A stretch of 38,338 bases of DNA from Syntrophobacter sp. SbD2 (lineage in GTDB: Bacteria > Desulfobacterota > Binatia > UBA9968), in contig CAMDBU010000046.1 in the NCBI GenBank assembly GCA_945889495.1, positions 1-38,338 on the forward strand, written 5' to 3'. The notes below the pieces were generated by a model, which saw only the letters and a program-made list of their open reading frames with translations, had not been told where the DNA came from and ran no database searches. The position numbers and the translations under genes were made by a program. Position 1 is the stretch's first letter, and each line of letters opens with the position of its first letter. This document shows positions 6,413 to 38,096 of the stretch, piece by piece.

Positions 6413-7360
6413 ATGAAGCTGACACTCTTGTTCGCACTGTTTGTTCTCGCGCTAACTTTCGTTTCCTTCACCGCCCACGCCGAAGTCGTCAACATCGGCA
6501 TCTCCACCGTGGGCCTTTACGAGCTACCGACGGAGATTTCCAAGCGGCGCGGCTTCTACCAAGAGGAAGGGCTCGAAGTGCGCAAGATCGCGGTGCGCTC
6601 GCCGCTGCATGTGCCGGCGCTGCTCGCCGGCGAGCTGGATTATTCCACCGTGACCGGACTGATCTTGAGCGCCAGCGTCCAAGGCATGCCGCTCAAATCC
6701 GTGATGGGCTGGTTCGACAAACCGCTGCACATGTTGATCGCCCGGCCCAATATCAAGCGGCTCACCGATCTGAAAGATAAGCGCGTCGCGGTCAGCGGCT
6801 TTGGTTCGATCCCCCATGTCATGCTGCGCGAGGCGCTGGCCGGCGCCGGCATGAATCCGGACAAGGACATCACCGTGCTGGCGCTGGGCGGCTCGGGCGA
6901 CCGGCTGGCAGCGTTGATCAGCGGCATCGTCGACGCGACGCCCCTCGATATCGCTTACATCCAGCGCACCGAAAAGCTCGGCTACAACAACCTGCTTTAT
7001 TTGGGCGACGTGGTGAACCTGCGGTTGGGCGGCTTGGCCGCCAGCAACGACAAGATTCAGCGCAATCCCGAACAGATCACCCGGGTCATCCGCGCCACGC
7101 TCAAAGGCGTGCGCTTTATGAAAACCAACAAGCCGGAAACCCTGGCGATCATGCGCGACTATCTGAAAATCAGCGGCGACTACGTCGAGAAAATTTATTT
7201 ATTCGCTCTCAAATCGCTCAACGAGGACGGCCTGGTGGCGAAAAGCAGCCTGGACAACGAGATTCGCCTGGCGCGCGAGCAGCTCAAAGTGAAGGAAGAA
7301 GTCGCCGAATCAAAAGTCGCCGAGTGGAAATTCATCAAAGACATTCTCGCCAAGCGATAG
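6413..7360 (+). CDS. ABC transporter substrate-binding protein, NMT1/SsuA-like
   Basis: A 315-residue exported binding protein. The signal peptide runs to about AHA|EV (residue 23). It is followed by the family pattern: ISKRRGFYQEEGLEV (ligand-domain entry), LLAGELDYST, the LTDLKDKRVAVSGFGS hinge strand, and MNPDKDITVLALGGSGDR. I chose the ATG at 6413 because GGGGAG lies ten bases upstream; a GTG at 6395 would add six residues before the signal peptide. It ends with EWKFIKDIL rather than the VD(S/N/A)S tail of most paralogues here, and in this it resembles the protein at 36052. No permease or ATPase gene is adjacent. The ligand is unknown. Confidence 0.88.
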   Translation: MKLTLLFALFVLALTFVSFTAHAEVVNIGISTVGLYELPTEISKRRGFYQEEGLEVRKIAVRSPLHVPALLAGELDYSTVTGLILSASVQGMPLKSVMGWFDKPLHMLIARPNIKRLTDLKDKRVAVSGFGSIPHVMLREALAGAGMNPDKDITVLALGGSGDRLAALISGIVDATPLDIAYIQRTEKLGYNNLLYLGDVVNLRLGGLAASNDKIQRNPEQITRVIRATLKGVRFMKTNKPETLAIMRDYLKISGDYVEKIYLFALKSLNEDGLVAKSSLDNEIRLAREQLKVKEEVAESKVAEWKFIKDILAKR

Positions 7361-7675
7361 TCGAAGACTTTTTCCCACAAAGTGTTTTATGATCTTGCCC
7401 ACACCCACAGATAACGAAAATAACCGATTAGGCCTCCAAGGCTCATTTTCTCGATCCGTCATTCCCGCGCAGGCGGGAATCCAGGTTTGTTCGCCGCCGA
7501 ATTAGCCTGGTTACCCGCTTTCGCGGGTATGACGGAACCTTGGTGCCAATTTGTTGGGAGATCATTCAGGCACAACTATTTTTGAAGGAGGATAGAAAGA
7601 GCACGAACTTCGGAAGTTCGGCAAACTGAACCCGTCTTGCGGGTTTTGCGTTCTTTGCGGCTAATTTCTTAATCC
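7361..7675. other. Convergent intergenic region, 315 bp
   Basis: The space between two convergent genes holds no credible coding sequence. It contains an inverted pair of REP-like elements (listed separately), a small hairpin CGAACTTC/GAAGTTCG near 7603-7619, and a weak AACCCG/CGGGTT stem at 7629-7645 followed by TTGCGTTCTTTGCGG, a phrase that recurs near 8718-8740. It probably stops transcription from both sides. Confidence 0.5.
7455..7536. repeat. Inverted pair of REP-like elements
   Basis: TCCGTCATTCCCGCGC and AGGCGGGAATCCAGG (7455-7485) is one small palindromic unit. GCCTGGTTACCCGC and TTTCGCGGGTATGACGGA (7505-7536) is a second in opposite orientation. The two halves pair with each other over about 32 bases with roughly six mismatches. 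The word 'cgtcattcccgcg...gcgggaatccag' is a dispersed repeat common in many proteobacterial genomes. Such paired elements often sit in 3' regions and can stabilise transcripts or act as terminators. Confidence 0.75.
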
Positions 7676-8704
7676 CTACTCCCCCAGCAACTTTCTCACC
7701 CGCTCGATCACCTGGGAGTTCTGCGACGCGATCACCTGCTTCGCCAACCCTTCCAACTCGTCGCCGCTGCTCGGCGTGATTTCGAGATTCTGCGATTTGG
7801 CGTCGGCGAGCAGTTCCGGGTCGGCCATCGCCTTCATGAACGCGGCGCGGAGGATTTTCGTCTTATCAGCCGCCACGCCGGGCGGCGCGATGATTGGCCG
7901 GCCGAAGTCGGTGGCGGCGAGGATCATGGTTAACAGCTGCCGCGCCGGCGCCGGCGTATTGGCTTCCTTCATCAGTTCATAAATCGTCGGCGTATCGGCG
8001 AACTGCGGATCGCGGCTCTTGCCGGTCTGGACTAAGACACGGGCGAAGCCGGTCTTGCGCCAGGTGTGGTAGGGCTCGCGCGCCAAATAGGCCGCCGTGG
8101 TCATGGCGCGGCAGTGCAGTTCGCCGCGCTCGACGCCGAGATCGATCTCGCGCACGCCCTGGTAGCCGGCGACGACGTTGAACTTCACGCCGACGGTTTC
8201 TTCGAGCAGTTTTAGAATGTAGACGCCGGAAGTTCCCGCTGCCGTGGCGCCGCAGCGTGGCAGCTCCTTGGCTTTGCGCACGTCGGCCAAACTCTTGAAG
8301 CCCAGATCGGCGCGAATATAGAGCATGTGATCGGTCTTGTCGGTGCTGCCGATCCAGGTGAACTTGCCCCAGTCGAATTTGATTTCCTTCTGCTTTAGCA
8401 GCTGGTGGAAATAAATCGCCGGCTGCACAGCACCGATGGTCAAGCCGTCCGGCTTGCTGACGTTGTAAACGTAATTGGCGCCGACCACCGAACCGGCCCC
8501 GCCCATATTCTGCACGATAAAGTTGGGATTGCCGGGAATATGCCGGCCGATATGGCGCGTGATCAGCCGCACGTACAAATCGTAAGTGCTCCCGGCATTT
8601 GCCCCCGCCACCACCGTAACCGTCTTACCCTGGTAGAAGTTCGATTGTGCGTTCGCGGCAGAAGTGAACGCGAGCGGCAGCAAGAGCCAGAGAAGCGGTG
8701 TCAA
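7676..8704 (-). CDS. Tripartite tricarboxylate transporter-type binding protein (TctC/Bug family)
   Basis: This 342-residue exported protein belongs to the Bug/TctC family of extracytoplasmic receptors, which bind carboxylates and similar small molecules. The signal peptide ends near ANA|QS (residue 19). Family features include FYQGKTVTVVAGANAGSTYD at the mature N-terminus, the HIPGNPNFIVQNMGGAGS segment and the KPDGLTIG strand. The start is a TTG at 8704, supported by GGGGAG five bases upstream. The family normally works with TctA/TctB membrane proteins, but neither is in the window, so this is an orphan receptor like thousands of Bug proteins in Bordetella-type genomes. The ligand is unknown. 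Confidence 0.9.
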   Translation of the reverse strand: MTPLLWLLLPLAFTSAANAQSNFYQGKTVTVVAGANAGSTYDLYVRLITRHIGRHIPGNPNFIVQNMGGAGSVVGANYVYNVSKPDGLTIGAVQPAIYFHQLLKQKEIKFDWGKFTWIGSTDKTDHMLYIRADLGFKSLADVRKAKELPRCGATAAGTSGVYILKLLEETVGVKFNVVAGYQGVREIDLGVERGELHCRAMTTAAYLAREPYHTWRKTGFARVLVQTGKSRDPQFADTPTIYELMKEANTPAPARQLLTMILAATDFGRPIIAPPGVAADKTKILRAAFMKAMADPELLADAKSQNLEITPSSGDELEGLAKQVIASQNSQVIERVRKLLGE

Positions 8705-8752
8705 TGAATCTCCCCTTTGCGTTTTTTGCGTTCTTTGCGGTTAAACAATCCG

Positions 8753-9896: not shown

Positions 9897-10952
9897 CTAG
9901 CGCCCGTAGGGTCCCAAAATATTGACCGCCGATTGGACGAATCTCAAGTCGACCATCTTGTTGACATCAACTTTGCCTTTTATCAAGCCGCGCTGAAAAT
10001 ACCACTCTTGGTCTTCGGAAAGTTCCTTGACATTGACTTCGCCGTTGGGCGCCAAGTCTTGCAGGCTGAGGCCGGCGCGCAGTTGTTTCTTGTCTTTGAC
10101 CCGCAAATACTTGGCGACCACGTCGACGATGTCATCGAGAGATCCCTTTTGCCGGACCACCGCGTCGTTGAACAGCCGTTGGCCTTTGAGCAGCGCGGTC
10201 ATAAAGCGCTCCGCCACCCGCGGCCGATTGCGGATAAAACTATCGGCGTAGAATAAATTGTTGGTCATATGGCCGAGGAACACATCGGCCAGATCGATCA
10301 GCGCCACGCCAATCCCCTGTTCTTCGATTTGGGTGGCGAAGGGTTGGACCATGAACGCCGCGTCGACCAGCCGATTGGCTAATGCATTGGCCATGTCGCC
10401 GAAGGGCATCACCCGGGTGGTTACGTCGGCCTCGCTCAAGCCGCCGCGTTTGAGAAAGCCGTCGAGATACATGCGCGAGGTGCCCACCGCGCTGTTGAGC
10501 GCAATGATCTTGCCTTTCACGTCTCGAATGGCGAACGGCTTACCTGACTCGATCAGGCTCGAGCGGACGATGAATTTGCCGCTGCCCTTGGGTCCGACCC
10601 GCGACTTGGTGGCGACCACTTTGAGGCCAACCCCGCCGGCCACCGCGTTGTAGATTCCCGGACTGACGCTGCCGCTGCCGGCATCGAGATCGCCGTTGGT
10701 AAGCGCCAACATCTGCGGCCCGCCGGAGGAGCTAAAATAAATCGGCTCGACGGCCAGCCCTTGCTCCTTGAACAAGCCGCGCTCCAGGGCGATGAACACC
10801 CCAGCATCGGCGTTGATCATCAGTATGGCGATTTTGACTTTGTCTTCCTGCGCCCAGGCGCCGCCGGCGCCAAGAAAGAGAAGCCAGAGCAACGCGGCAA
10901 CAAAGCGCATCGACAGGAATCCCATGGAGTAAAATTTTCGTCGCGTCATCAT
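9897..10952 (-). CDS. ABC transporter substrate-binding protein, NMT1/SsuA-like
   Basis: A 351-residue exported binding protein with a long n-region and signal peptide ending near AWA|QE (about residue 34). The family pattern follows: FIALERGLFKEQGLAVEPI, LTNGDLDAGSGS, the VKGKIIALNSAVGTSRMY hinge and GGLSEADVTTRVMPFGDMANAL. The tail MVDLRFVQSAV is a variant of the VDxS tail seen in most paralogues. I took the ATG at 10952; a TTG at 10964 would add four residues and another ATG follows at once. No ribosome site is evident. It stands alone after the LLM gene's 5' end, with a row of hairpins upstream. The ligand is unknown. Confidence 0.88.
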   Translation of the reverse strand: MMTRRKFYSMGFLSMRFVAALLWLLFLGAGGAWAQEDKVKIAILMINADAGVFIALERGLFKEQGLAVEPIYFSSSGGPQMLALTNGDLDAGSGSVSPGIYNAVAGGVGLKVVATKSRVGPKGSGKFIVRSSLIESGKPFAIRDVKGKIIALNSAVGTSRMYLDGFLKRGGLSEADVTTRVMPFGDMANALANRLVDAAFMVQPFATQIEEQGIGVALIDLADVFLGHMTNNLFYADSFIRNRPRVAERFMTALLKGQRLFNDAVVRQKGSLDDIVDVVAKYLRVKDKKQLRAGLSLQDLAPNGEVNVKELSEDQEWYFQRGLIKGKVDVNKMVDLRFVQSAVNILGPYGR

Positions 10953-10974
10953 GGACGAGTTCAATCAATAAAAT

Positions 10975-11069: not shown

Positions 11070-12089
11070 TTAAGATTGATACGCCACCCGCAGGCTCATC
11101 ACCTGGGGCAAGCCGCCGATGATTTGGCGAAACGATTCGCCGCCATCTTCGGTCAGCCAGATCGCGCCGTCGGTCATGCCGACGTAAAAATGATTAGCCT
11201 CGGCATCGTCGCTCACCACCGTGCGCGGCGCCGCGGTGAAATGGTCCGGCAGCCCGCCGGTGAGCCGCTGCCAGCTTTCACCGCGATCAACGCTGCGGTA
11301 AAAGCCCGTGTCGGCGCCCTCCGGCCGGCGCCAACCTGGCGGCGGCACCGCCGCCGCCGCGGTCATCAACATGCTCGGCCGCGACCGATGGAACGCCACC
11401 GGCGCCATGTAGCAGCGGTCAAGTCCAGAGTTGCGCACAGTAAAATGATCGCCGCCATCGGTGCTCTTGCAAAACCATTTGCCGGAGGCGGCAATCACGA
11501 TGGCGGGATCGTCGGGCATGACGTAGACATAATGCGAGTCGAATTCCGTCCCCTGCTGGATGTTCTGCCAACTCTTACCGCCGTCGCGGCTGCGGATGAG
11601 CCAGCCTTCTTCAATCGCGCCGAAGATTAACTGCGGATCGCCGGCGCATAGCGCCAAACCTTTGACGTGGCTGATATGGGGCGGGTTAGGAAAGGTCCAG
11701 TCCTTGGTTTCTCGCAAGCTGCGCAGCTGTTCGCACTCGGTCCAGTGATCGCCGCCGTCGCGACTTTTGAATATCGCCGTCGGCCCGGTGCCGAGAACCA
11801 ACTCACCGGTCACGGCATGTTGCGCCAATGACCAGGCCTCTTTAAATACGATGCCATTATTGATCTCGCGCCAGCTCTGACCGCGGTCGTCGCTGCGGAA
11901 AACCCCGCCGCGGCTGGTCGCCGCGTAAAGCCGGCGCGGATCGCGCCCATCGACCACCACCGGCGCTCGGAGCGCGCCACAGTTTTCGAGCCCCAGCGGT
12001 TTGGCCTCATAGCCGCCGTTACGGCGCGCGACCTGCAACAAACCCTCAGCCGTGCCGACGTAAAGAATCGGATCTGCGCCATTCGCCAT
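11070..12089 (-). CDS. Asp-box (BNR) beta-propeller protein
   Basis: This 339-residue protein has six Asp-box motifs (S/T-x-D-x-G-x-x-W/F): SDDRGQSW (66-73), SRDGGDHW (109-116), SRDGGKSW (167-174), STDGGDHF (209-216), SVDRGESW (266-273) and TEDGGESF (313-320). This indicates a sialidase/YCF48-like six- or seven-bladed propeller. There is no signal peptide and no sialidase catalytic FRIP motif, so an enzyme role is not supported; a binding or scaffold role is more likely. AAAGGAG precedes the ATG. It lies downstream of the protease-FHA pair on the same strand, but a 126-base hairpin region separates them. Confidence 0.85.
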   Translation of the reverse strand: MANGADPILYVGTAEGLLQVARRNGGYEAKPLGLENCGALRAPVVVDGRDPRRLYAATSRGGVFRSDDRGQSWREINNGIVFKEAWSLAQHAVTGELVLGTGPTAIFKSRDGGDHWTECEQLRSLRETKDWTFPNPPHISHVKGLALCAGDPQLIFGAIEEGWLIRSRDGGKSWQNIQQGTEFDSHYVYVMPDDPAIVIAASGKWFCKSTDGGDHFTVRNSGLDRCYMAPVAFHRSRPSMLMTAAAAVPPPGWRRPEGADTGFYRSVDRGESWQRLTGGLPDHFTAAPRTVVSDDAEANHFYVGMTDGAIWLTEDGGESFRQIIGGLPQVMSLRVAYQS

Positions 12090-12138
12090 GATAGACTCCT
12101 TTCGCGATTCGCCGAGCGCGGCAGCGCCGCAAAAAAGT

Positions 12139-12264
12139 TTCGGATTATCTCTCGCAAAGGCGCAAAGACGCCAAGTTCGGAAAGGTTAAAACAATTATCA
12201 ACTGCCTTACCTCCTAGTCTCCGAACTTTGCGCACTTTGCGCCTTTGCGAGAGAAAAATCCGAA
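12139..12264. repeat. Long inverted repeat with 43-45-base arms
   Basis: The left arm 12139-12181 starts TTCGGATTATCTCTCGC and contains GCAAAGGCGCAAAGACGCC. The right arm 12220-12264 is its near-exact reverse complement (TTTGCGCCTTTGCGAGAGA followed by AATCCGAA). The loop is 38 bases. The arms are built from a repeated GCAAAG word. It lies between the FHA gene's 3' end and the propeller gene's 5' end. It is the most perfect member of a class of word-built palindromes in this window. Confidence 0.85.
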
Positions 12265-12320
12265 TCCGACTTTCTTTCCGTACTCCTACATTTACCCAAG
12301 TCGCGCCACAAGCTGTCGTG

Positions 12321-13310
12321 TTAGGGTTGCGACGATTTGGCTTTTTGCGCCAGCTTGTCCAATTCCTTTTTGATTTTTTCCGCGCCGGCGAAGAATTCAT
12401 CCACCGAAGTCGCGGGCAGCCAGGCGGCATCAATCGGTTTCACCACGCCGGTGAATGCCATGACCGTGGAGAATTTGCTGCGCGCGGCGTAGTCGCTGAT
12501 GGCGCTGGTGCCGACGACCACCAAGCTGATCGCGCCGGCGGCCCAGAGCCGCGAGCGGCGGCGCAGCGGCGAGGCGGCGCCGAGATGACCGTAGAGCAAC
12601 GCCGCCAGCACTGCGCCGTAACCGAACAGCCCGGCGATCCAGAGCATCGGCACCCGCGGTAGAAAAAATTCCGTCCACTCGGCAACCACGCCGAGAGCGC
12701 TAATCGTCAACAGCGCCAAGCAAGCGATGGTCACATGCGCGGCGAAATTGAAACGGCTGACGATGATCCGGCTGGCCAACGCCCACATGCCCGCCCAGGT
12801 CGCCAACATCGACACCGTGATCCAGGGCTCGCCGATGATGCGCGCGAAGCTCACCCGCTCGACACTGGAGAGATAGGCGTCCAAACAAAGTAGCAGTACC
12901 AACACCACGCCGGCCACCGCCGCCGCGTAAGGCGAAGCCAAGGGCGAAGCCAAGGGCGAAGCCTTCACCGCGCGATCGACCTGCGTCGGCGCCAGCGGAT
13001 GATCGACGCTGACGTAGCGCAAAGTCGTATGGCCGATGCGGAATTGGCTACCGGATTGAAGTACCAACTGGGCGACACGATCTTTGCTAGAAGCCGAATA
13101 AATGCCGTTGACGCTATCCAAATCGCTGGCGAGCAAGCGCCCTTGCTCGTCCTGAAAAATTTTTAAATGGAGCGGACAGACAAACGGATCGTCGACAATC
13201 ACCTGATTGCCGTAAGCCCGGCCGATGGTTAGCGGAAAACTATCGACGGCGATGCGCTCGCTGACCGCGCCCTTGCCATCGAGGATTTCCAGATAGCCTA
13301 ACGCTGCCAC
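12321..13310 (-). CDS. FHA-domain multi-pass membrane protein
   Basis: A 329-residue protein with an N-terminal FHA domain (about residues 5-100) and about five transmembrane helices (near 126-148, 163-183, 189-209, 220-241, 254-274), then a lysine-rich tail. FHA domains bind phosphothreonine. The GR (30-31), H48 and NG (68-69) positions are kept, but the usual serine-arginine before the histidine reads C45-P46, so phosphopeptide binding may be altered. I start it at GTG 13310, where homology begins and GGAG lies upstream; the open frame extends 132 codons further but only as an out-of-frame shadow of the protease gene. The start overlaps the protease stop by 13 bases, so the two are probably co-translated and may act together at the membrane. 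Confidence 0.82.
   Translation of the reverse strand: MAALGYLEILDGKGAVSERIAVDSFPLTIGRAYGNQVIVDDPFVCPLHLKIFQDEQGRLLASDLDSVNGIYSASSKDRVAQLVLQSGSQFRIGHTTLRYVSVDHPLAPTQVDRAVKASPLASPLASPYAAAVAGVVLVLLLCLDAYLSSVERVSFARIIGEPWITVSMLATWAGMWALASRIIVSRFNFAAHVTIACLALLTISALGVVAEWTEFFLPRVPMLWIAGLFGYGAVLAALLYGHLGAASPLRRRSRLWAAGAISLVVVGTSAISDYAARSKFSTVMAFTGVVKPIDAAWLPATSVDEFFAGAEKIKKELDKLAQKAKSSQP
12931..12963. repeat. 12-bp tandem repeat inside the FHA gene
   Basis: GGCGAAGCCAAG occurs nearly three times in a row. On the coding strand it encodes the repeated SPLA unit in KASPLASPLASP, a short linker between the FHA domain and the first membrane helix. Copy number is likely to vary by slippage without breaking the frame. 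Confidence 0.7.
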
Positions 13311-14578
13311 TTGATGTTCTCCATGTAGCGCCGGCTCAAGTTCTGGACATTGTCGAAACTGACCCCGGAGAGCGACAGCGTTGACACCAAGCCGGCGTTG
13401 CGCGAACCCAAGGTCGCGGCGCGAAACACCGCGTCGTAGAGCGCCGGCAGTTTCACGTATTGGCGCGCGCACAGGACGCCCTTGAGCTTGCCATGGGCGG
13501 TGGCGACGTTGCGCGTCTGGCAGCGAAACGGTGTGACTTCCTCTTCGTTGCCGAACATCGCCGCGTTGCCGCCCTGAAACTGGCCGGAGTAAAGCGTGAA
13601 GAAGCGCACCGGATTGAGCTCGCTGGTGGACAGCAGTTGATGATAAAAACGCACGATGCCCAAAGACTGCTCGCTGGAGACGAAAATATAATCGTCGGTC
13701 GAGCAATCATGGGTCACCGAGACGTAGGGCAACTCCTTGCGCCGCACGGCGTCGGCCCAGCAGCGAAAAAACTCCGTCGGCTTGGTCGGCAGATCGTAGG
13801 GCGCGAGCGCCACCCGGGGCGTCTTGGCGTCGAACATGCCGGCGAGATAGCGCGCCTGATTGTCAAAAATCTGCCGGCCGACATCGGCGAGAAAACTCGC
13901 CGCCGGCGGCGTTTCGCCCTTGGCGGTCTTGTCGAGCAAGATCATCGCGCGCTCAGCGGGGACCAGAAAGCTGATCTGATTGCCCTCGGTGGCGACGTTG
14001 ATGCCGACGACTTTGCCGGCTTGGGTCAAGGTTGGCCCGCCGCTCATGCCGGGGTTAAGCGAGCCGGTGAAATGCACTTTGGGATAGAGCGTATGTTTGA
14101 GCAGGCCGTTATGCGTGCCTTCGACGATGGACAGACCGAGATCGCGCGGGTGGCCGAGGGAATAAAGCCGCGTCCCCTGGGCCACCGCTTTGGACTCGAA
14201 GACTAGATGACCTTTGGGCTGGCGATTGGTGCGCAGCACCGCCAAGTCAAAGACCACATCGACACCAAGCACCGTCGCAACGGTGGTAGCACCAGCCACA
14301 TCGATGACATCGATGCGATAACGCTCCGGCGAATGGACCAATTTTGAGATCACATGGTAGTTGGTAACGATCCGTCCGCTGGCGTCGGCGAAAAAGCCCG
14401 TGCCGGTGGCCGCCTTGGCCGACGAACCGGTCTCGACAACTTCGATCTTCACCACATGTTCGGAAAATTGTTTGAATATCTCCGGCGTGGTGCCGGGTAT
14501 AGTTTGCGCCCGCGCCGTCCCAACCGCCGCGAGAGCGAACCAGAGCAGCAAGGCAATCGATGTAAGCAGTCGTGTCAT
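13298..14578 (-). CDS. Secreted trypsin-like serine protease with extra C-terminal domain
   Basis: A 426-residue exported protein; the signal peptide ends near ARA|QT (residue 24). The N-terminal half is a chymotrypsin-fold protease of the HtrA/DegP type with an intact triad: H75 in VTNYHV, D111 in FDLAVLR and S179 in NPGMSGGP. Residues 130-160 (YSLGHPRDLG) and 187-200 (GKVVGINVATEGN) fit that fold. There is no PDZ domain. Instead, about 200 C-terminal residues of unrecognised sequence contain several cysteines (for example the CSTDD, FRCQTR and LCARQY contexts). The downstream FHA membrane gene overlaps its stop. A role in periplasmic proteolysis or regulated cleavage is likely; targets are unknown. 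Confidence 0.9.
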   Translation of the reverse strand: MTRLLTSIALLLWFALAAVGTARAQTIPGTTPEIFKQFSEHVVKIEVVETGSSAKAATGTGFFADASGRIVTNYHVISKLVHSPERYRIDVIDVAGATTVATVLGVDVVFDLAVLRTNRQPKGHLVFESKAVAQGTRLYSLGHPRDLGLSIVEGTHNGLLKHTLYPKVHFTGSLNPGMSGGPTLTQAGKVVGINVATEGNQISFLVPAERAMILLDKTAKGETPPAASFLADVGRQIFDNQARYLAGMFDAKTPRVALAPYDLPTKPTEFFRCWADAVRRKELPYVSVTHDCSTDDYIFVSSEQSLGIVRFYHQLLSTSELNPVRFFTLYSGQFQGGNAAMFGNEEEVTPFRCQTRNVATAHGKLKGVLCARQYVKLPALYDAVFRAATLGSRNAGLVSTLSLSGVSFDNVQNLSRRYMENIKWQR

Positions 14579-25317: not shown

Positions 25318-25376
25318 GTCTCGTGTCCGAAGTCTCGAGTCTCGGGTTTGTAACTCGGGACGCGAGACGCGAGACC
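25318..25376. repeat. Word-built inverted repeat (GTCTCG)
   Basis: The region reads CGTCTCGTGTCCGAAGTCTC, GAGTCTCGGG, a short centre, then CTCGGGACGCGAGACGCGAG. Arms built from GTCTCG/CGAGAC pair imperfectly around 25350. It fills most of the 85-base gap between the amidohydrolase and lyase-like genes, which run in the same direction. Confidence 0.6.
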
Positions 25377-25394
25377 GCAAACTGGAGGTTTATG

Positions 25395-29671: not shown

Positions 29672-30469
29672 ATGCTCACACCGATCAAGATCGACAATCG
29701 CATCGACGCCCATCTCGGCATCCCCGAAGGCATCGGCAAACGGCCGGTGGTCATTCACATGCACGAACGCTACGGCATCGTGCAGCACACCCTGGACTTG
29801 GGCGAGAAGTACGTCAAAGCCGGCTACGTCACCATCGTGCCGGATTACTTTTCCCGCTTCACCGGCGACCGCAAGGCGCTGGCTGACGGTAACGACCGTT
29901 GCGAACTAGACGACGAAGTCGTCCTGTCGGACACCGACGCGGTTATGACCTACCTGCGCACTCTGCCCCAGGCCGACATGACCAAGGTCGCCATGTCCGG
30001 GGTTTGCCAAACCGGCCGCCAACCGATCCTGGTCGGCGCCAAGCGCGACTACCTCAGCGCCGCCGTGGTGCTCTACGGCGCGGTCTACGACGCCGATTGG
30101 AAGTCCCATCCGATGCGCCCCGAGTCCATCGAAGCGTTGATGCAAAAGCTCCAGTGCCCGCTCACCGCCGTGTTCGGCGAGCTCGATAATTTGATTCATC
30201 TCGACAACATCGTGCGCATGACCGCGGTGCTCGCCGCGGCCAAAAAAAGCTTCGGCATCCGCGTCTACCCCGACGCGCCGCATGGTTTTTTGAACGACAC
30301 CATGCCCGGCCGCTACCGCCAGCCACAAAGCGACGCGGCGTGGAACCAGATCACGTCATTTTTGAAATCGGTATTCGCCGGCGAGTGGAAAAAAGAGCGC
30401 GCCACCTGGCGCTTCGAGGCCGACAGCTCGCTGGATTACGATTTCAGCGCCATGAAGCGCTGGGAGTAG
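29672..30469 (+). CDS. Dienelactone hydrolase family protein
   Basis: A 265-residue alpha/beta-hydrolase of the dienelactone hydrolase family. The triad is C112 in MSGVCQTGRQ, D172 in FGELDNLIH and H204 in DAPHGFLND; the E32 in HMHERYG matches the glutamate that holds the cysteine in the resting enzyme. These enzymes open dienelactones in chloroaromatic breakdown or act on other esters. It has a longer C-terminal tail (ATWRFEADSSLDYDFSAMKRW) than the 236-residue classical enzyme. There is no signal peptide. It starts 206 bases after the secreted-protein pair, so it is probably a separate unit. The exact substrate is unknown. Confidence 0.92.
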   Translation: MLTPIKIDNRIDAHLGIPEGIGKRPVVIHMHERYGIVQHTLDLGEKYVKAGYVTIVPDYFSRFTGDRKALADGNDRCELDDEVVLSDTDAVMTYLRTLPQADMTKVAMSGVCQTGRQPILVGAKRDYLSAAVVLYGAVYDADWKSHPMRPESIEALMQKLQCPLTAVFGELDNLIHLDNIVRMTAVLAAAKKSFGIRVYPDAPHGFLNDTMPGRYRQPQSDAAWNQITSFLKSVFAGEWKKERATWRFEADSSLDYDFSAMKRWE

Positions 30470-30599: not shown

Positions 30600-30628
30600 T
30601 TGACAGCCACCCCGTTGGCGCATAGATT
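30600..30628 (+). promoter_or_regulatory. Strong sigma-70-like promoter of the ABC permease
   Basis: TTGACA (30600-30605), 17 bases, TAGATT (30623-30628): a perfect -35, ideal spacing and a four-of-six -10. Transcription should start near 30635. The TTG that would open the permease frame furthest upstream is part of this -35 box, so it cannot be the translation start on this message. Confidence 0.6.
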
Positions 30629-30656
30629 CGCCTCACCATTAGCTAAGGAGCGCGCC

Positions 30657-31502
30657 ACGTCCAAGCAAGAGCAAGAAGCCTTCGATCTGGTCTCCGTCGA
30701 CGAGTCCAATCCGCTCACCACCAACCGGCTGTGGCAGCGCACCCGCGAAGTCTTGTCCAACTGGTTGGGGGTCATCGGCATTGTCGGTTTTTTCTCGGGC
30801 TGGGAGCTATCGACCCGGCTGGAGATCATCAATCCTTTTTACTTCCCGCCTTTTAGTAAAATCATCATCAAGGGCTACGAGCTGTTCGCCAACGGCTCCA
30901 TCTGGGAGCATATGTGGTTCAGCCTGACCAATTTTTTGATCGGCTTTGCCATCTCGGTGGTGTTCGGCGTGGTCATGGGCGTGCCCATGGGCTGGTACCG
31001 CACGCTACACAAGACCTTGGACCCGCTGCTCTCCGGCATCTACGCCACGCCGCTGATCGCTCTCCTGCCGCTGATCATCATGATGTTCGGCCTAGGCGCG
31101 GTGTCGAAAATCATCATGACCGTGCTCGCCGCGGTGTTCCCGATTTTGATCAACACCATGGTCGGCATCGCCAACACAGATAATCGCTTGATCACCATGT
31201 CGCGCGCCTTCGGCGCCCGCGATAGCCAGATCTTCATGAAAGTGTCGTTGCCGGGTTCCTTGCCCTACATCGTCGCCGGCATGCGCGTGGCCCTGGGGCG
31301 CGCGCTGGTTTACATCGTCGTCGCCGAGCAATACGGCGCCGCCACCGGGCTCGGCTACTTGAGCTCAGTGGCCGCCCAGCGCTTTCAAATGGCCGCCATG
31401 TTCGTCCCCATCGTCATCATCGCCGGCCTGGGCGCCGGCTTGAACGAGACCCTCAAAGCCATCGAGCGCCGTCTCGATAAGTGGAAGCCGCAAAAATCTT
31501 AA
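30657..31502 (+). CDS. ABC transporter permease (SsuC/TauC-like), probable ACG start
   Basis: This inner-membrane permease is about 281 residues from the start proposed here. It has about six membrane helices and the BPD_transp_1 signature: the EAA loop SRAFGARDSQIFMKVSLPGS (about 182-201) that contacts the ATPase. It belongs to the nitrate/sulfonate/taurine family, the natural partner of NMT1/SsuA-like binding proteins. The frame opens at TTG 30600, but that codon is the -35 box of a good promoter. TAAGGAG at 30644-30650 sits six bases before ACG TCC AAG at 30657, which suggests initiation at ACG or a former ATG. No in-frame ATG or GTG precedes the first membrane helix. It is the only ABC membrane subunit in the window; no ATPase gene is present. 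A binding-protein gene follows after 23 bases. Confidence 0.88.
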   Translation, partial: TSKQEQEAFDLVSVDESNPLTTNRLWQRTREVLSNWLGVIGIVGFFSGWELSTRLEIINPFYFPPFSKIIIKGYELFANGSIWEHMWFSLTNFLIGFAISVVFGVVMGVPMGWYRTLHKTLDPLLSGIYATPLIALLPLIIMMFGLGAVSKIIMTVLAAVFPILINTMVGIANTDNRLITMSRAFGARDSQIFMKVSLPGSLPYIVAGMRVALGRALVYIVVAEQYGAATGLGYLSSVAAQRFQMAAMFVPIVIIAGLGAGLNETLKAIERRLDKWKPQKS

Positions 31503-31525
31503 GCCCATCGTTTCGGGAGGATGCC

Positions 31526-32515
31526 ATGAAGTTGACTGGAAAAATCGTCGCGTTCTGTTTCTTTGTCCTGGCGCTGGCCGGCGTCGGCCACGGCGGCGAA
31601 GCCTTGCGAAAAATGACCGTCGGCCAGGCCGGCGTCAACCCCGGCGCGGGCTTGTTTTCCATCGCCGTCAATCAGGGTTTTTATAAAAAGCATGGCCTCG
31701 ACGTGGAAATCATCAAGACCAACACCACCGCCGCGGTGCAGGCGATGCTGGCGAAGAAAATGGACATGGCTACCGGCGCCGGCATGGCGGCGTTCATCAC
31801 GGCGAATCTCGAAGGCGCGCCCGGCTTCACGCTGGTGGGCTCCTGGGTCAACGTTTTTCCCTACAAGATCATGGCGCAGAAAGGCATCCGCAAGGTCGAA
31901 GACCTGCGCGGCAAGACCGGCCATGTCGGCGCCCCCTTCGGCACCATCCCCGACACCGCCCTGCGCTTCGCCCTAGGCCGCTTGAAGATCGACGCCGAAA
32001 AAGATGTGAAGCTCGTGCAGCACTCCAACGCTGATCCGGCGAGCATTTTGGCCGCCATGGAAAAAGGCGAGGTGCAGTTTGGCATCCTGGCGCCGCCCTT
32101 CGACTTGATCGCCGAGCGGCGCGGCTATGAGATGCTTTTGGCGCTTCCCGGCTTGGGCATTCCCTGGCAGCAAAACGGCGAGATCGTGCCGACCGCGTAT
32201 TTGAAAGCCAACCGCGACAACGTCCTGCGCTTGATGCGCGCCACGGCGGAAGCGTCAAAATTCTATTTCGACAACAAGGACAAGACGTTGGAAATCTTGA
32301 CCGAGTATCTCGGTCGGCCGCGCGACGAAGCCGAGTACGCCTACAACCAATTCAAACGCTGGGCCGACAAGAACCACCGGCCCCAGGTGGAAACCATCAA
32401 GACCACCTTGGAAGCGATCAAGAAAAACACCCCCAAAGCCGCCGGCGCCAACGCGGCATCCTATGTCGACGCCAGCATCGTCGACCAGCTGGTGAAAGAA
32501 GGGTACTACAAGTAA
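31526..32515 (+). CDS. ABC transporter substrate-binding protein, partner of the permease
   Basis: A 329-residue exported binding protein; the signal peptide ends near GHG|GE (residue 23). Features: SIAVNQGFYKKHGLDVEII, MLAKKMDMATGAG, VEDLRGKTGHVGAPFGTIPD and LKIDAEKDVKLVQHSNAD. It ends with YVDASIVDQLVKEGYYK. I chose the ATG at 31526, five bases after GGGAGG; the frame is open upstream to 31481. It is the only binding protein here next to a permease gene and is probably co-transcribed with it, so the two most likely form one importer together with an ATPase encoded elsewhere. Confidence 0.92.
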   Translation: MKLTGKIVAFCFFVLALAGVGHGGEALRKMTVGQAGVNPGAGLFSIAVNQGFYKKHGLDVEIIKTNTTAAVQAMLAKKMDMATGAGMAAFITANLEGAPGFTLVGSWVNVFPYKIMAQKGIRKVEDLRGKTGHVGAPFGTIPDTALRFALGRLKIDAEKDVKLVQHSNADPASILAAMEKGEVQFGILAPPFDLIAERRGYEMLLALPGLGIPWQQNGEIVPTAYLKANRDNVLRLMRATAEASKFYFDNKDKTLEILTEYLGRPRDEAEYAYNQFKRWADKNHRPQVETIKTTLEAIKKNTPKAAGANAASYVDASIVDQLVKEGYYK

Positions 32516-32675: not shown

Positions 32676-33809
32676 GTGAAGCTTTACAATTTCGATCTCC
32701 TCGCCTATCCCCATGTGCCCACCGATGCGCCGCGCACGCCGGTGCCGAGCAGCTATTTCGATCCGATCAAAGGCGCGGCCAACTATGCCGAGCATTTGGA
32801 CGAGATGACCTACTGCGAGGAGCTGGGCTTCGACGGCGTGGTCTTCAACGAGCATCACTACAGCGCCTACGGCACCATGCCGTCGCCCAATCTAATCGCC
32901 TCGGCGCTTAGCCAAAGAACCAAGCGAATCAAGATCGGCGTCCTCGGCAACATTTTGCCGCTGCGCAACCATCCGGTGCGGGTCGCCGAAGAGTACGCTA
33001 TGATCGATTGTCTCAGTAACGGCCGACTGATCGCCGGCTTCGTGCGCGGCATCCCGCCGGAATATATTTGGTACGGCGTCAATCCAGCGGAATCGCGCGG
33101 GCGTTTTACCGAAGCTTTCGACTTGATCATGACCGCCTGGACCCAGCCGGTGTGGAGCCATGAGGGGAAGTTTTTTAAATTGCACGACTGCGCTATCTGG
33201 CCACGGCCGGTGCAGCAGCCTCACCCGCCGATCTGGATCGCCGCCCGCAGCGCGGAATCGATTGAATGGTGCGTCGAGCGCAAACTCCCCTGCGCGCAGG
33301 TCTACCAGACCACCGACCAGATCGAAGACACTTTTAACTATTACCGGACCAAGGCCAAGGAAGCAGGCTGGGACGCCAAGACCGATCAGTTCATCCTCTG
33401 CCGCCACATCTATATCGACGACACCGAGGACAAAGCGCGGGCAAATATTCAGGAAGCGATGGCGTACTTTTTCACCGTCTTCAACCGCGGCTTCAACGAA
33501 GCGATCAATAAAGACGCGGTCGACAAGCAGCTCCAGGCCGCGCTCACCAGCGAACGCTCCTTCAGCTACTTCCGCGCTGGCAGCCGCGAGCGCTTCGATT
33601 TTTCCAAGATGGACTTCGACGGCCTGGTTAAAAGCGGCTACCTGATCGCCGGCAATCCCGACAGCGTGGCTAAGCAGATCCAAGCCCAGATGAAACAAGT
33701 AGGCGCCGATCACTTCATGGGCATGTTCCACATCGGCAACTTGAAGCATGAAAAGGTCGTCAACTCGCTGGAGCTCTTCACCAAAGAAGTGATGCCCCGG
33801 CTACGCTAA
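32676..33809 (+). CDS. LLM-class flavin-dependent oxidoreductase (second)
   Basis: A 377-residue luciferase-like monooxygenase. It has MTYCEELGFDGVVFNEHH (active-site histidines in EHHYSAYG), IKIGVLGNILPLRNHPVRVA, EYAMIDCLSNGRLIAGFVRG, and RPVQQPHPPIWIAARSAE. This is the larger, bacterial-luciferase-alpha-like type, distinct from the F420-type protein at 8835. Such enzymes oxygenate organic substrates with reduced FMN supplied by a separate reductase, which is not present here. The start is GTG with TAAGGAG eight bases before. A promoter lies upstream and an intrinsic terminator downstream, so it is a single-gene unit. Substrate unknown. Confidence 0.93.
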   Translation: MKLYNFDLLAYPHVPTDAPRTPVPSSYFDPIKGAANYAEHLDEMTYCEELGFDGVVFNEHHYSAYGTMPSPNLIASALSQRTKRIKIGVLGNILPLRNHPVRVAEEYAMIDCLSNGRLIAGFVRGIPPEYIWYGVNPAESRGRFTEAFDLIMTAWTQPVWSHEGKFFKLHDCAIWPRPVQQPHPPIWIAARSAESIEWCVERKLPCAQVYQTTDQIEDTFNYYRTKAKEAGWDAKTDQFILCRHIYIDDTEDKARANIQEAMAYFFTVFNRGFNEAINKDAVDKQLQAALTSERSFSYFRAGSRERFDFSKMDFDGLVKSGYLIAGNPDSVAKQIQAQMKQVGADHFMGMFHIGNLKHEKVVNSLELFTKEVMPRLR

Positions 33810-33960: not shown

Positions 33961-35043
33961 ATGACCCTGTTACTCAGCAACGAAGAAATCGATTCCATGC
34001 TCGATGTTTCCATGGTGCTCGACGCGGTGGAGAAATCCCAGCGCGCGATGGCGTCGGCGGAAGCCTTGAGCAGCCCGCGAGTCGACACGCTGGCGCCGAC
34101 CGTTACCGGCGAAGCATCGGCGACTTACAGCTTGAAAAGCATGAGCGGACTGTGGCCCGAGGCTGGCGTGGCGGCGTTGCGCATCAACAGCGATGTGCTG
34201 GTGTGGCCCACCGTCGCCGGCAACGTCAGACGCGACCGCTTGCCGAGCAGCACCGGCCGCTGGACCGGCATGCTGATCCTCTACAGCATGGCCACGGGCG
34301 AACCCTTGATGATCTCCCCCGACGGCTACATCTCGCGGCTGCGCGTCGGCGCCACCAACGGATTGGCGGCGCGCTACCTGGCGCGGACCGATGCGCGGGT
34401 GATGGCGCTGCTCGGCACCGGCTGGCAAGCCGGCGGCCAGCTCATGGCCCATTGCGCGGTGCGGCCCATCGAGACGGTCAAGGTATTTAGTCCCAACCCA
34501 GCCAACCGGGAAAAGTTTTGCCGCGAGTTACAGAGCCGCGTGAAAGCCAAGTTGATCGACGTCGATTCGGCGCAGGCGGCAGTTGAGGACGCCGACATCG
34601 TCGTCACTGCCACCAACTCCATGGAACCGGTGCACCGTAAAGAATGGCTGCGCCCCGGCGTCCACTATAGCGCGGTGAAGGTACAAGAGATGGATCAACC
34701 CTTTCTCGACGCCGTCGACCGGGTCTTCATGTTCTCGAAAAATCCGCTCACCACGCGACCGCAAACGGTCAAGCTCGATTCGGTGATTACGCCGGAAGCG
34801 GATGGCGGTTGGTGGCAAAACCGCCAAGGCCAGTCTTGGGATCGGCTGCAAGAGCTGCCCAATCTCTTTATCGGCAAAGCTCAAGGCCGGGAAAACGACC
34901 GGCAGACCACGGCATTCGTCAACAACGTCGGCCAAGGTTTGCAGTTTTGCGCCGTCGCCAAACGGGTCTACGACGAAGCCTGCGCGCGCAAACTCGGCCG
35001 CGAGTTGCCCACCGAGTGGTTCACCCAGGATGTCCATCCGTAA
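33961..35043 (+). CDS. Ornithine cyclodeaminase / mu-crystallin family protein
   Basis: A 360-residue NAD(P)-binding protein of the ornithine cyclodeaminase/mu-crystallin family. The N-terminal half carries the substrate-lysine motif YSLKSMSG (K59) and the dimer strand PLMISPDGYISRLRVGATNG. The Rossmann half has the dinucleotide loop LLGTGWQAGGQ (151-160), with SPNPANREKF at the strand 2 end and ADIVVTATNS further on. Members deaminate ornithine or reduce ketimines and imino acids. A longer C-terminus than the archetype contains GGWWQNRQGQSWDRLQEL. It begins a three-gene plus-strand run with two binding-protein genes, 27 and 18 bases apart, so the importers may supply its substrate or a precursor. 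Confidence 0.92.
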   Translation: MTLLLSNEEIDSMLDVSMVLDAVEKSQRAMASAEALSSPRVDTLAPTVTGEASATYSLKSMSGLWPEAGVAALRINSDVLVWPTVAGNVRRDRLPSSTGRWTGMLILYSMATGEPLMISPDGYISRLRVGATNGLAARYLARTDARVMALLGTGWQAGGQLMAHCAVRPIETVKVFSPNPANREKFCRELQSRVKAKLIDVDSAQAAVEDADIVVTATNSMEPVHRKEWLRPGVHYSAVKVQEMDQPFLDAVDRVFMFSKNPLTTRPQTVKLDSVITPEADGGWWQNRQGQSWDRLQELPNLFIGKAQGRENDRQTTAFVNNVGQGLQFCAVAKRVYDEACARKLGRELPTEWFTQDVHP

Positions 35044-35070: not shown

Positions 35071-36033
35071 GTGTCACCAGCGCGAATCTTTATCGTCATC
35101 GTTAGCCTGCTGATCCTAAATGGCGCGCCGTCCGCCGCCCAGTCCCTGCGCATCGCCATCGGCGCCGTCAGCGTCGCCCATGTGCCCGGACTGATGGCCG
35201 TCGAAGGCGGTTACTTCGCGCGACAGAATTTGCAACCGGAGTTGATCATGATCCGCGGCGGACCGCAGACGGTAGCCGCGCTACTCGGCGGCGACGTCGC
35301 CTTCGCCCAGGTCTTCTCCGTGCCCATCGTCAGCGCCAAACTGGGCGGCGGCGACGCGATCATCATCGCCGGACTAGTCAACGAGCCGCTGTTTTCATTG
35401 ATGACTGTGCCCACCATCGAAAAACCGCAGGACCTGCGCGGCAAGAAATTCGGCATCACCACCTTTGGCTCCGCCTCGGATATCGCTCTGCGCTTGGCGC
35501 TGAACAAGTGGGGGCTCAAAGCGGAAACCGATGCGACGATCCTGCAAGTCCGCGGCATCCCAGAAATCTTGACCGCCATGCAAACCGGCGCGGTGCATGC
35601 CGGCATGGTTTCGCCGCCGACCAACATCAACGCCATCAAAGCCGGCTTCCGCGAACTCGCCTTTCTGCCCAAACTCGGTATTTCGTTCCAGCACACCACG
35701 TTGTCGACGACACGCCGCTACCTGGCGAAAAATCGCGAGACCGCCGTCAAAACGCTGCGCGCCTACGGCGCGGCGATGCGGCGCATCAAAGCCGACAAAC
35801 CGTTCACGCTTAAAGTGCTGAGCAAATATTTTCGCACCAACGACCAGGAGATCCTCGATCAAACCTACAGCGCGGCGGTTTCGGTGTTTCGCGAGATACC
35901 CCATCCGACCTTGCCCGGTATCCAATCGACCCTCGACTTTCTCGCGCTTACCGACGCAAAGGCGAAACTGGCGAAACCTACGGACTTCGTCGATTCTTCG
36001 CTGCTCGACGAGATCGAAAAAAGCGGATTATAA
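35071..36033 (+). CDS. ABC transporter substrate-binding protein, NMT1/SsuA-like
   Basis: A 320-residue exported binding protein; the signal peptide ends near SAA|QS (residue 23). The start is GTG with GAGGAG upstream. It is related to the tandem pair at 26274/27277 (ITTFGSASDIALRLALNKWG versus ISRFGSAADTGVKMALAKAG; HPTLPGIQSTLDFL versus YPTLAGIQTILDEL) and has the tail FVDSSLLDEIEKSGL. It lies in a probable operon after the ornithine cyclodeaminase-like gene and 18 bases before another binding-protein gene. The ligand is unknown. Confidence 0.9.
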   Translation: MSPARIFIVIVSLLILNGAPSAAQSLRIAIGAVSVAHVPGLMAVEGGYFARQNLQPELIMIRGGPQTVAALLGGDVAFAQVFSVPIVSAKLGGGDAIIIAGLVNEPLFSLMTVPTIEKPQDLRGKKFGITTFGSASDIALRLALNKWGLKAETDATILQVRGIPEILTAMQTGAVHAGMVSPPTNINAIKAGFRELAFLPKLGISFQHTTLSTTRRYLAKNRETAVKTLRAYGAAMRRIKADKPFTLKVLSKYFRTNDQEILDQTYSAAVSVFREIPHPTLPGIQSTLDFLALTDAKAKLAKPTDFVDSSLLDEIEKSGL

Positions 36034-36051: not shown

Positions 36052-37023
36052 ATGACGCCATCTAAAAAATCGCACTTCACCGTCGGTCTGATTGTTTGCC
36101 TAGCATGGCTGCTACCGGCACTAGCCGGTTCTTTCGCATCAGCCCAAGAGCGCATCACGCTCGGCTTGACCACCCGCAACGGCAGCACTTCCCTGCCCTA
36201 TGTGGTCGCTGAGGAGAAAGGGTTTTTCAAAGCCGAGGGACTCAACGCCATCGTCGTCATCATGCAAAACCAAGTGGTAGTCAACGGCGTGCTCAGCCGT
36301 CATGTCGACTACGGCGGGACGTTCTCCAACTTCGTCGGCGCGGCCATGTCGGGGGCGCCGGTGAAGATCGTCATGTCGGTGATGGACGGCGCCGATCATT
36401 TTCTCGTCACCAGCCCGAACATCAAGCGGGTCGAAGATTTGCGTGGCAAGACCTTCGGCATCAGCAGCTTCGGCGGCACGCCGCATAGCGAAGCGATCGC
36501 GATCCTGCGCAGGTATAATTTAAATCCCGACAAGGACGTGACGTTCATGCAGGTGGGCGGCAGCTCGGCGCGCTACCTGGCGCTGGAGAGCGGCTCGATT
36601 CAGGCGGCGATGATCGTGCCGCCGTTTAATCATCTGGCGAAAAAGCGCGGCTTCAACCAGCTGCTCGGCTTCAACGACATCATGGCCATGCCCGTCGGCG
36701 GCCTGGCGGTACACACGCAAAAGATGAAAGAGAAGCCCGACGAGATCGTCAAGATGATCCGCGCGCTAATCAAAAGCCTGGAATACATCCGCACCCGCAA
36801 AGCCGATATCCTGGCGATCATCGACAAGCAATGGGGCGTCAAAGAGCCAGAAGTCCGCGAAGAGATGTACAAGGAAATGATCGGCCTGTTCAGTCGCACC
36901 GGCATCGGCCCCGACGAAGCGATGAAGAACGTCATCCAGCTCGTCCGCGAGACCAGGAAGAACGCGCCGCCGACGACCATCGCCGATGTCGCGGATTGGA
37001 GTTTTGCGCGCAAGGCGCAGTGA
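36052..37023 (+). CDS. ABC transporter substrate-binding protein, NMT1/SsuA-like
   Basis: A 323-residue exported binding protein; the signal peptide ends near ASA|QE (residue 31). Features: YVVAEEKGFFKAEGLNAIV, VEDLRGKTFGISSFGGTPHS and NLNPDKDVTFMQVGGSSARY. It lacks the VDxS tail and ends in ADVADWSFARKAQ. In this and in the NPDKD...GGS block it resembles the protein at 6413 rather than its neighbour at 35071, so adjacent genes here are not simple tandem copies. Last gene of the plus-strand run; a word-built hairpin follows. Confidence 0.9.
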   Translation: MTPSKKSHFTVGLIVCLAWLLPALAGSFASAQERITLGLTTRNGSTSLPYVVAEEKGFFKAEGLNAIVVIMQNQVVVNGVLSRHVDYGGTFSNFVGAAMSGAPVKIVMSVMDGADHFLVTSPNIKRVEDLRGKTFGISSFGGTPHSEAIAILRRYNLNPDKDVTFMQVGGSSARYLALESGSIQAAMIVPPFNHLAKKRGFNQLLGFNDIMAMPVGGLAVHTQKMKEKPDEIVKMIRALIKSLEYIRTRKADILAIIDKQWGVKEPEVREEMYKEMIGLFSRTGIGPDEAMKNVIQLVRETRKNAPPTTIADVADWSFARKAQ

Positions 37024-37102
37024 AAGGTCGTGCTCGTCGCTCGTGATCGTGCTCGTAGGCCGGTCAGGACCGAACACGAGTCACGAGCCACGATCACGAT
37101 TC
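37024..37102. terminator. Word-built inverted repeat (CTCGTG) between convergent genes
   Basis: GGTCGTGCTCGTCGCTCGTG and ATCGTGCTCG (left arm from 37026) pair with CACGAGTCACGAGCCACGAT and CACGATTC (right arm to 37102), about 24 of 30 positions. The word is CTCGTG/CACGAG. It fills the gap between two convergent genes, as does the CACAGAG hairpin at 22105, and is likely a two-way terminator. Confidence 0.65.
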
Positions 37103-37109
37103 TGAGTTC

Positions 37110-38096
37110 CTAGCCACCGAGTTTTTTAAAGAACCCTTCCTTCTCCAGCTCATCCATAAACGAGTTATCGACGAACTCTTCGCCGGTTTTGCCGCGCAGG
37201 TCGGCTTCTTTCTCGGCGTAGAAGCCGTAGGTGTCGCGCACGCCGGCCATATTGATGCGCGGCGGGAAGGAAAAGCGCGGCGCGAAGTAGTCGTAGGTAG
37301 CGTTGAGCATGTCCTTGTCTTCCATGCGCATGCGCTGGCTGAAGACTCTCTGGGTACGCGTCTTGTCGGTGCGGATCGCATGGACGGCTTCGGCGTAGGC
37401 GCGCACGAAGCGTTTAACCTTGTCGCGATTTTCCTTGATCAGGCTGCCCTTCACGTAGAGCGAGGACTGGGGAAAGTTAGCGGTCATTTCGCCCATGTCG
37501 GCGAGCACCCGGTGGCCGGTTTGCAACGCCTTGGTCAAATGGGGCGGCGCCAGGATCGCCGCGTCGATACGACCCAGGAGCAGCGACTGCAAGCGCGTCG
37601 GCGCGTCGCCGCCGAGCAGGATGGTAACTTCGTTCAACTTGATGCCCCATTCCTTGAACGCCAACTGTAGCGCCAAATCGTTGGAGCCGCCGAAGTTGAG
37701 AATCCCGACCTTGCGCCCGCGCAAATCCTTGGGCGAGCGAATATCCGGCTTGACGACGAAAGAGTATGGGAACTTGTTGTACGACGCGGCGAGCACGCGG
37801 ATATCGGAACCGCGCGCCGCCGCAAATAGTGGCGTGGTTGCCGAGCCGGTGGCGAACTGCGTCGCGCCGCTCATCAGCGTCGCCACCGAGCGCGCGCCGC
37901 CGGTGATCATCACCAACTCGACCTCCAACCCATGCTTCTCGAACAACCGCAGATCCTTGGCCACCCAGCTGGCGCTTTGAAAGCCCGACAGGCCGCCGTA
38001 GTCGGCGATGACTTTGTCGAGCTTGTCGGCGGCGAACGAACCCACTGGAACCATCGACACCATCACCGCGAGAAAGCTGATAACTCGTTTAAACAT
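37110..38096 (-). CDS. ABC transporter substrate-binding protein, NMT1/SsuA-like
   Basis: A 328-residue exported binding protein; the signal peptide ends near SFA|AD (residue 22). Features: SASWVAKDLRLFEKHGLEVE, TLMSGATQFATGSAT, PKDLRGRKVGILNFGGSNDL and KLNEVTILLGGDAPTRLQSL. The tail is FVDNSFMDELEKEGFFKKL. AAGGAG lies five bases before the ATG and a promoter candidate further upstream. It stands alone, convergent with the 36052 gene. The ligand is unknown. Confidence 0.92.
   Translation of the reverse strand: MFKRVISFLAVMVSMVPVGSFAADKLDKVIADYGGLSGFQSASWVAKDLRLFEKHGLEVELVMITGGARSVATLMSGATQFATGSATTPLFAAARGSDIRVLAASYNKFPYSFVVKPDIRSPKDLRGRKVGILNFGGSNDLALQLAFKEWGIKLNEVTILLGGDAPTRLQSLLLGRIDAAILAPPHLTKALQTGHRVLADMGEMTANFPQSSLYVKGSLIKENRDKVKRFVRAYAEAVHAIRTDKTRTQRVFSQRMRMEDKDMLNATYDYFAPRFSFPPRINMAGVRDTYGFYAEKEADLRGKTGEEFVDNSFMDELEKEGFFKKLGG

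Follow-up and report, generated by a model that had tools for sequence, protein, structure and literature searches.

The contig CAMDBU010000046.1 of the Syntrophobacter sp. SbD2 draft genome (assembly GCA_945889495.1; Desulfobacterota, Binatia, UBA9968), which we call the window (38,338 nucleotides, analysed at its full length), encodes many periplasmic receptors of the NMT1/SsuA type, along with a single permease of the ATP-binding cassette (ABC) class and no ABC ATPase. Across the genome, we estimate that this soil bacterium has about 400–675 such receptors versus about a dozen matching membrane transporters. The reading that we prefer, and to which we assign a probability of about 55%, is that many soluble receptors dock in trans on a few shared transporter cores, with some of the core components encoded separately.

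The window is contig C46 of a draft genome of 5.64 Mb in 239 contigs, which is 95.6% complete with an estimated contamination of 2.7%. A preliminary description of the window, made from its sequence alone, had suggested counting receptors and transporter genes across the genome, and we ran this count. In a genome-wide search with PF09084, the best 150 of 482 first-look candidates were scored, and all 150 were significant. To estimate the total, we built a profile from the members in the window and in a sample of 80 stretches (1.53 Mb, or 27% of the genome) and ran it on the called genes. (Both the gene caller and the profile are home-made; in the sampled part, the profile recovers 44 of 45 Pfam matches.) The sample contains 146 receptors among 1407 called genes, and stratified extrapolation gives about 535 NMT1-type genes in the genome (95% bootstrap interval, 409–675), about 480 of them with scores over 180 bits. 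This is about 10% of the genome's genes, by estimate. If we join the sample with the Pfam matches outside it, at least 251 distinct NMT1-type genes were seen directly. Decarboxylase-like enzymes that share the fold contribute a few genes to each of these counts. The receptors are the largest paralogue family in the sample, with 137 members versus 40 in the next largest (by all-against-all BLAST). As for their arrangement, most receptor genes in the first sample were single, and the clusters comprised 15 pairs, 4 triples, and a single run of five. TctC-type receptors are likewise in excess, with 23 in the 1.53 Mb sample (about 85 by extrapolation) versus 8 TctA (L009–L068, L260–L279).

Against these receptors stand 70 matches to the permease domain (PF00528) and 72 to the ATPase domain (PF00005) in the whole genome, counting transporters of all kinds. 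We read the PF00528 matches by position and neighbours, and they include about 20 Opp/Dpp pairs, and about 30 others each make up half of a two-domain Fbp-type protein. The single-domain permease loci that we read hold about 10 complete SsuABC-like cores (C1, C189, C136, C108, C65, C53, C126, C130, C162, and C80). Another two SsuC-type permeases, in the window and on contig C85, have no ATPase. (The C106 permease was considered as a third and was rejected, as the coupling-loop motif is absent and the alignment is poor.) Just 7 of 129 sampled members of the main receptor clade lie within three genes of an SsuC-like or SsuB-like gene. The C136 core comprises two permeases, one ATPase, and three receptors; the three receptors are consecutive and follow the permease-permease-ATPase genes (L060:9995-13036), a modest example of one core with several receptors.

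Within the window, the preliminary description had listed eleven exported NMT1/SsuA-like receptors, and all of them are real: ten match PF09084 in direct Pfam scans (E = 1.1e-15 to 1.4e-24) and the eleventh matches it in the whole-genome search. Their start codons fall a few codons or less from those listed. Its single TctC-type receptor and single binding-protein-dependent permease also held up (Table 1). As it had stated, the window has no ABC ATPase or TctA, because the genome-wide PF00005 and PF01970 searches gave no matches on this contig (TctB was not searched separately). Nor is an ABC ATPase hidden in the window according to Pfam, and the AAA protein at 2817–4604 is GajA. The description was right that there is a large imbalance between receptors and transporters, but by framing it as large "for 32 kb" it understated the scale, because the rest of the genome is equally imbalanced. 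NMT1-type genes occur at about 0.1 per kb genome-wide, and their density in the window is about three times as high, so the abundance of receptors in the window is not due to chance. A receptor island that is local to the window can be ruled out, as receptors were found along the whole genome.

The enrichment is also a trait of the family. It was present in all 17 family genomes, each of which saturated the PF09084 search, and full counts for four of them are 82, 124, 106, and 79 NMT1-type genes, versus 12–37 in order-mates of the family and 2–3 in two class-mates. PF00528 counts do not rise in parallel with the receptors across these genomes. Close relatives of the window's permease (71–90% identity) come from genomes that are labelled as Deltaproteobacteria or Candidatus Binatia, several of which have isolate names that refer to soil depth; this makes Candidatus Binatia the probable lineage of the genome.

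Most of the receptors belong to a single clade. In a FastTree phylogeny of 135 sequences, 117 sequences, comprising nearly all of the orphans from the first sample and the receptors of C136 and of the window's permease, were split from the other 18 with a local support of 0.85. Among the 18 are the decarboxylase-like enzymes and the binding proteins that belong to nine complete cores, as well as a small number of orphans, for example 9897–10964 in the window. The only core-linked receptors inside the expanded clade are those of C136 and of the window's permease. All 48 clade members that we checked match PF09084 and 47 of the 48 match PF13379. The clade is thus not the TctC family; in the window, only 7676–8704 is a PF03401 protein. 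Mean pairwise identity among the receptors is just 23%, and the closest paralogue in the sample has a median identity of 36%, so the receptors diverged long ago.

Among 104 receptors, 82 have a Sec-like export signal by a crude rule, one has a lipobox, and one has a Tat motif; some of the receptors without a Sec-like signal likely reflect errors in the start codon. An AlphaFold2 model of the receptor at 26274–27266, with a predicted local distance difference test (pLDDT) score of 95, aligns to 3qsl, CmpA, SsuA, NrtA, and TauA with Z scores of 25–30. The best structural match is 3qsl, an exported protein from Bordetella (Z = 29.9), and the Z scores for CmpA (2i48) and SsuA (2x26) are 28.7 and 27.8. 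A profile search against the sequences of solved structures also ranks 3qsl, TauA, and SsuA at the top. As modelled, this receptor has the type II periplasmic-binding fold, a common class of ABC receptor fold that is shared with Thi5 and several enzymes. We rejected the idea that the receptors are Thi5-like enzymes; the fold is common to Thi5, but most members have export signals. The receptors do not reach the cut-off for the SsuA aliphatic sulfonate subfamily (TIGR01728), with 60–105 bits versus 163.5.

The two permeases without an ATPase are conserved. Relatives of the C85 permease are found in 16 of the 17 family genomes, at 74–95% identity and in one to five copies, beside genes with no role in transport, such as those for UPF0182 and a B12-binding radical SAM protein. 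In the family loci, there is no receptor or ATPase within two genes of this type of permease, except for a separate cluster in L183. More distant homologues in order-mates (about 43% identity) lie in ATPase-permease-permease operons, several with a receptor in view. The window's type of permease is found in 11 of the 17 family genomes at 69–90% identity; in all of the family loci that we read it is followed by a receptor, and in none of them does an ATPase adjoin it. No family genome lacks all three of the C85-type permease, the window-type permease, and the C136 core (which is found in 10 of the 17). In G009, which is rated as 100% complete, there are 82 receptors and a single permease within E = 1e-30 of either query, of the C85 type, as well as many permeases of other kinds. 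Both orphan permeases match PF00528 and keep the coupling-loop motif FGA....F..V.LP, and their best NCBIfam matches are SaoP, SsuC, and TauC, all under the equivalog cut-offs.

The obvious candidate to power the solo permease is an SsuB-like ATPase on contig C184. It is 58% identical to the C136 ATPase and its Walker A, signature, and Walker B motifs are readable. It has no SsuC neighbour and is located in front of Fbp-type genes. ATPases of this type are present in 13 of the 17 family genomes at 74–90% identity; outside the family, identity does not rise above about 60%.

Many receptor genes lie beside genes for catabolic enzymes. Among 57 same-strand neighbours within 150 bases, the families include amidohydrolases (5), enoyl-CoA hydratases (3), glyoxalases (3), and arylmalonate decarboxylases (2). 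Other same-strand neighbours are thiamine pyrophosphate-dependent enzymes, UbiD, a CoA-transferase, an amidase, and MmgE/PrpD. (These are small raw counts.) The operon in the window encodes a receptor, an amidohydrolase, a citrate-synthase-like enzyme, a dienelactone hydrolase, the permease, another receptor, a luciferase-like monooxygenase, and an ornithine cyclodeaminase. It is partly conserved in relatives: the permease and its partner receptor are retained and the other receptors vary.

The preliminary description had offered two readings of the imbalance, that many receptors share a transporter core encoded elsewhere or that some receptors act in sensing or periplasmic trapping. We favour the shared core because the receptors form a single clade, because permeases without an ATPase are conserved, and because there is a solo SsuB-like ATPase; the operonic neighbours do not support sensing. 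The window is a sample of a family-wide expansion of soluble, Sec-exported substrate-binding proteins of the NMT1/SsuA (ABC) class. Each receptor probably has a ligand of its own, a small organic acid or a similar compound, and many of the receptors are co-transcribed with catabolic enzymes. The receptors would not have individual transporters; once loaded, each would dock in trans on one core out of a small number of the SsuBC/TauBC type. Candidate cores are the complete C136 core, the ATPase-less permease of the window, and the stand-alone C85 permease, and the permeases that lack an ATPase may be energised from elsewhere, such as by the C184 or the C136 ATPase. Of this picture, what we observed are the gene counts, a single receptor clade, permeases that are both conserved and isolated, signal peptides in most receptors, and catabolic neighbours.

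Several points weigh against a shared core. We extrapolated the receptor totals from a sample of 27% of the genome, and genes can be missed in a draft assembly. With a mean identity of only 23% among the receptors, a common docking surface is demanding. The C184 ATPase is located in an Fbp-type operon, and its partner may be the Fbp-type permease next to it. Finally, G014 (96% complete) has neither a C184-type ATPase nor the C136 core, so the ATPase partner there would have to differ.

We put forward a more specific version only tentatively. The C85-type permease, a separate SsuB-like ATPase (of the C184 type or from C136), and several hundred interchangeable soluble receptors, each in its own catabolic operon, might form a fully split ABC importer. 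If so, then uptake specificity would evolve by adding receptors only, and the receptors would rank, relative to genome size, with the largest gene families described in prokaryotes.

It seems unlikely to us that the receptors feed a non-ABC transporter or serve as periplasmic buffers or as carriers to envelope proteins. Binding proteins can be adopted by unexpected carriers, as is reported for TAXI-GltS (PMC12344293), and the TctC-type receptors of this genome are in excess as well. However, no membrane-protein family recurs among the commonest families of the 57 operonic neighbours. Also, the fold and the nearest solved relatives are those of ABC receptors of the SsuA/TauA/CmpA/NrtA type, and both C136 and the window show linkage between members of the clade and SsuC-type permeases.

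We consider it quite unlikely that most of the orphan receptors are sensors that touch histidine kinases, chemoreceptors, or regulators of nutrient genes, with transport by other carriers. Sensing by orphan binding proteins is known (the AioX structure is among the structural matches of the receptor model), and in Rhodoplanes, 14 of 22 histidine kinases are near TctC genes (PMC5994714). Here, though, the 57 operonic neighbours are mostly catabolic enzymes, and histidine kinases are absent from their 25 commonest families and appear only in the distant control set. Hundreds of receptors also seem far beyond a plausible number of sensors (kinases were not counted genome-wide).

That binning or gene-calling artefacts inflated the receptor numbers is very improbable. 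The assembly is a fragmented draft with some estimated contamination, but all 17 family genomes are enriched, including ones that are 98–100% complete with 1–4% contamination. Furthermore, the open frames have no internal stops, the clade members tested all match PF09084, and there are no identical copies (the closest pair of paralogues in the sample is 74% identical). Least credible is the alternative named in the preliminary description, that each receptor has its own unlinked permease and ATPase encoded elsewhere: the at least 251 receptors seen directly face 70 permease domains and 72 ATPase domains, a tally that covers every kind of transporter and includes many of the Opp or Fbp type, so a one-to-one set is excluded unless most permeases are unrecognisable by Pfam.

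The phenomenon is known from expansions of Bug/TctC receptors, which are the closest precedent. These occur in Bordetella, Cupriavidus, and Rhodoplanes sp. Z2-YC6860, which has 434 such genes or 6.2% of its coding sequences, and sharing of one membrane component was proposed there too (PMC5994714). In both cases a soil organism has orphan periplasmic receptors by the hundreds but few membrane components, and the receptor genes are highly divergent paralogues that also occur in tandem arrays. Bug/TctC receptors, however, belong to TctABC tripartite tricarboxylate transporters, which are secondary transporters, whereas the receptors described here are of the type used by ABC importers. The proportion is also higher (an estimated 10% of genes versus 6.2% of coding sequences), and unlike the Bug/TctC expansions, there is enrichment in every family genome together with conserved SsuC-type permeases that lack an ATPase. 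The new elements are the receptor class, the genome proportion, and these permeases. The expansion probably matches or exceeds the earlier one, in a genome two thirds the size and as a family-wide trait. We found no earlier report of an NMT1-type expansion in the open-access literature that we searched, which does not prove that none exists, and the main text of the Binatota genome paper (PMC8262859) does not mention transporters.

The SsuABC, TauABC, NrtABCD, and CmpABCD importers have the same receptor fold, and by profile the permeases here are of the SsuC/TauC type and the ATPase of the SsuB/TauB type. The differences from these importers are that the scores here are far under the NCBIfam cut-offs for SsuA, SsuC, TauC, and TauB, that genes for receptor, permease, and ATPase mostly lie apart, and that their numbers are extremely unbalanced. 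Importers that share an ATPase are also known; the MsiK ATPase is encoded apart from the permease that it powers. In Staphylococcus, FhuC is reported to govern heme acquisition by another system (PMC10147376). The difference is that here the permease also appears to be shared, by what would be hundreds of receptors. The conserved permease without an ATPase or a receptor is a concrete candidate for the missing hub, which makes the role of orphan receptors directly testable, and the receptor-enzyme operons provide a list for predicting ligands in an uncultured soil lineage.

Table 1. Features of the window discussed in the text (columns: feature, position, strand, evidence).
NMT1-fold protein, probable cytosolic 4,5-dihydroxyphthalate decarboxylase	533–1552	+	9jp7 E 2.3e-61; PF09084 23.8 bits
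NMT1-type periplasmic receptor, expanded clade	6395–7360	+	PF09084 E 4.4e-23, tree; coding score favours start 6413
TctC/Bug-type receptor, no TctA nearby	7676–8704	-	PF03401 E 1.5e-9; no PF01970 match on contig
NMT1_2-type receptor, outside expanded clade	9897–10964	-	PF13379 E 3.6e-22; groups with core C108 binding protein
NMT1-type receptor, expanded clade	21123–22103	+	PF09084 E 1.1e-15, tree
NMT1-type receptor, expanded clade	22208–23191	-	PF09084 E 5.5e-16, tree
NMT1-type receptor, expanded clade, first gene of partly conserved catabolic operon	23262–24206	+	PF09084 E 1.4e-24; 87% identity in G002
Amidohydrolase_2, operon enzyme	24206–25309	+	PF04909 E 9.4e-45; 75-95% identity in relatives
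Citrate-synthase-like enzyme, operon	25323–26174	+	PF00285 E 1.8e-29
NMT1-type receptor, expanded clade, tandem pair 1	26274–27266	+	PF09084 E 2.5e-19; AlphaFold2 model pLDDT 95
NMT1-type receptor, expanded clade, tandem pair 2	27277–28275	+	PF09084 E 3e-20; 68% identical to pair 1
Dienelactone-hydrolase family enzyme, directly upstream of permease	29672–30469	+	PF01738 E 7e-34; 69-89% identity in relatives
SsuC/TauC-type ABC permease without neighbouring ATPase	30600–31502	+	PF00528 E 2.8e-24; coupling-loop motif FGARDSQIFMKVSLP intact
NMT1-type receptor overlapping permease gene, conserved linked partner	31481–32515	+	PF09084 E 1.2e-17; 61-88% identity where syntenic copy complete
Luciferase-like monooxygenase, operon enzyme	32676–33809	+	PF00296 E 1.4e-54
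Ornithine cyclodeaminase/mu-crystallin family enzyme, operon	33961–35043	+	PF02423 E 7.9e-42
NMT1-type receptor, expanded clade	35071–36033	+	PF09084 E 1.4e-16
NMT1-type receptor, expanded clade	36052–37023	+	PF09084 E 2.6e-19
NMT1-type receptor, expanded clade	37110–38096	-	PF09084 E 6.8e-26 (genome search); 67-69% identity in relatives

The preliminary description overlooked a twelfth NMT1-fold protein, at 533–1552. Because it has no apparent signal peptide and resembles the solved decarboxylase 9jp7, this protein is probably a cytosolic enzyme (4,5-dihydroxyphthalate decarboxylase) and not a receptor. The 9jp7 structure shares its overall fold with the receptors, aligning to the model of 26274–27266 with Z = 16.1. 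There are four further low-scoring relatives of 533–1552 in the sampled part of the genome.

Searches of the window for tRNAs and Rfam families found none. The overlapping genes at 2817–6349 (+) encode GajA (an OLD-type ATPase-TOPRIM protein) and GajB (a UvrD helicase), which together are a Gabija anti-phage system (PADLOC, E = 6e-293 and 4e-231), and their codon usage differs from that of the rest of the window. At 11070–14578 (-) are consecutive genes for BNR/Sortilin-like, FHA-domain, and trypsin-like proteins. Two adjoining genes at 28306–29465 (+) encode small exported proteins that are similar to each other, have no Pfam match, and vary quickly (37–74% identity in relatives).

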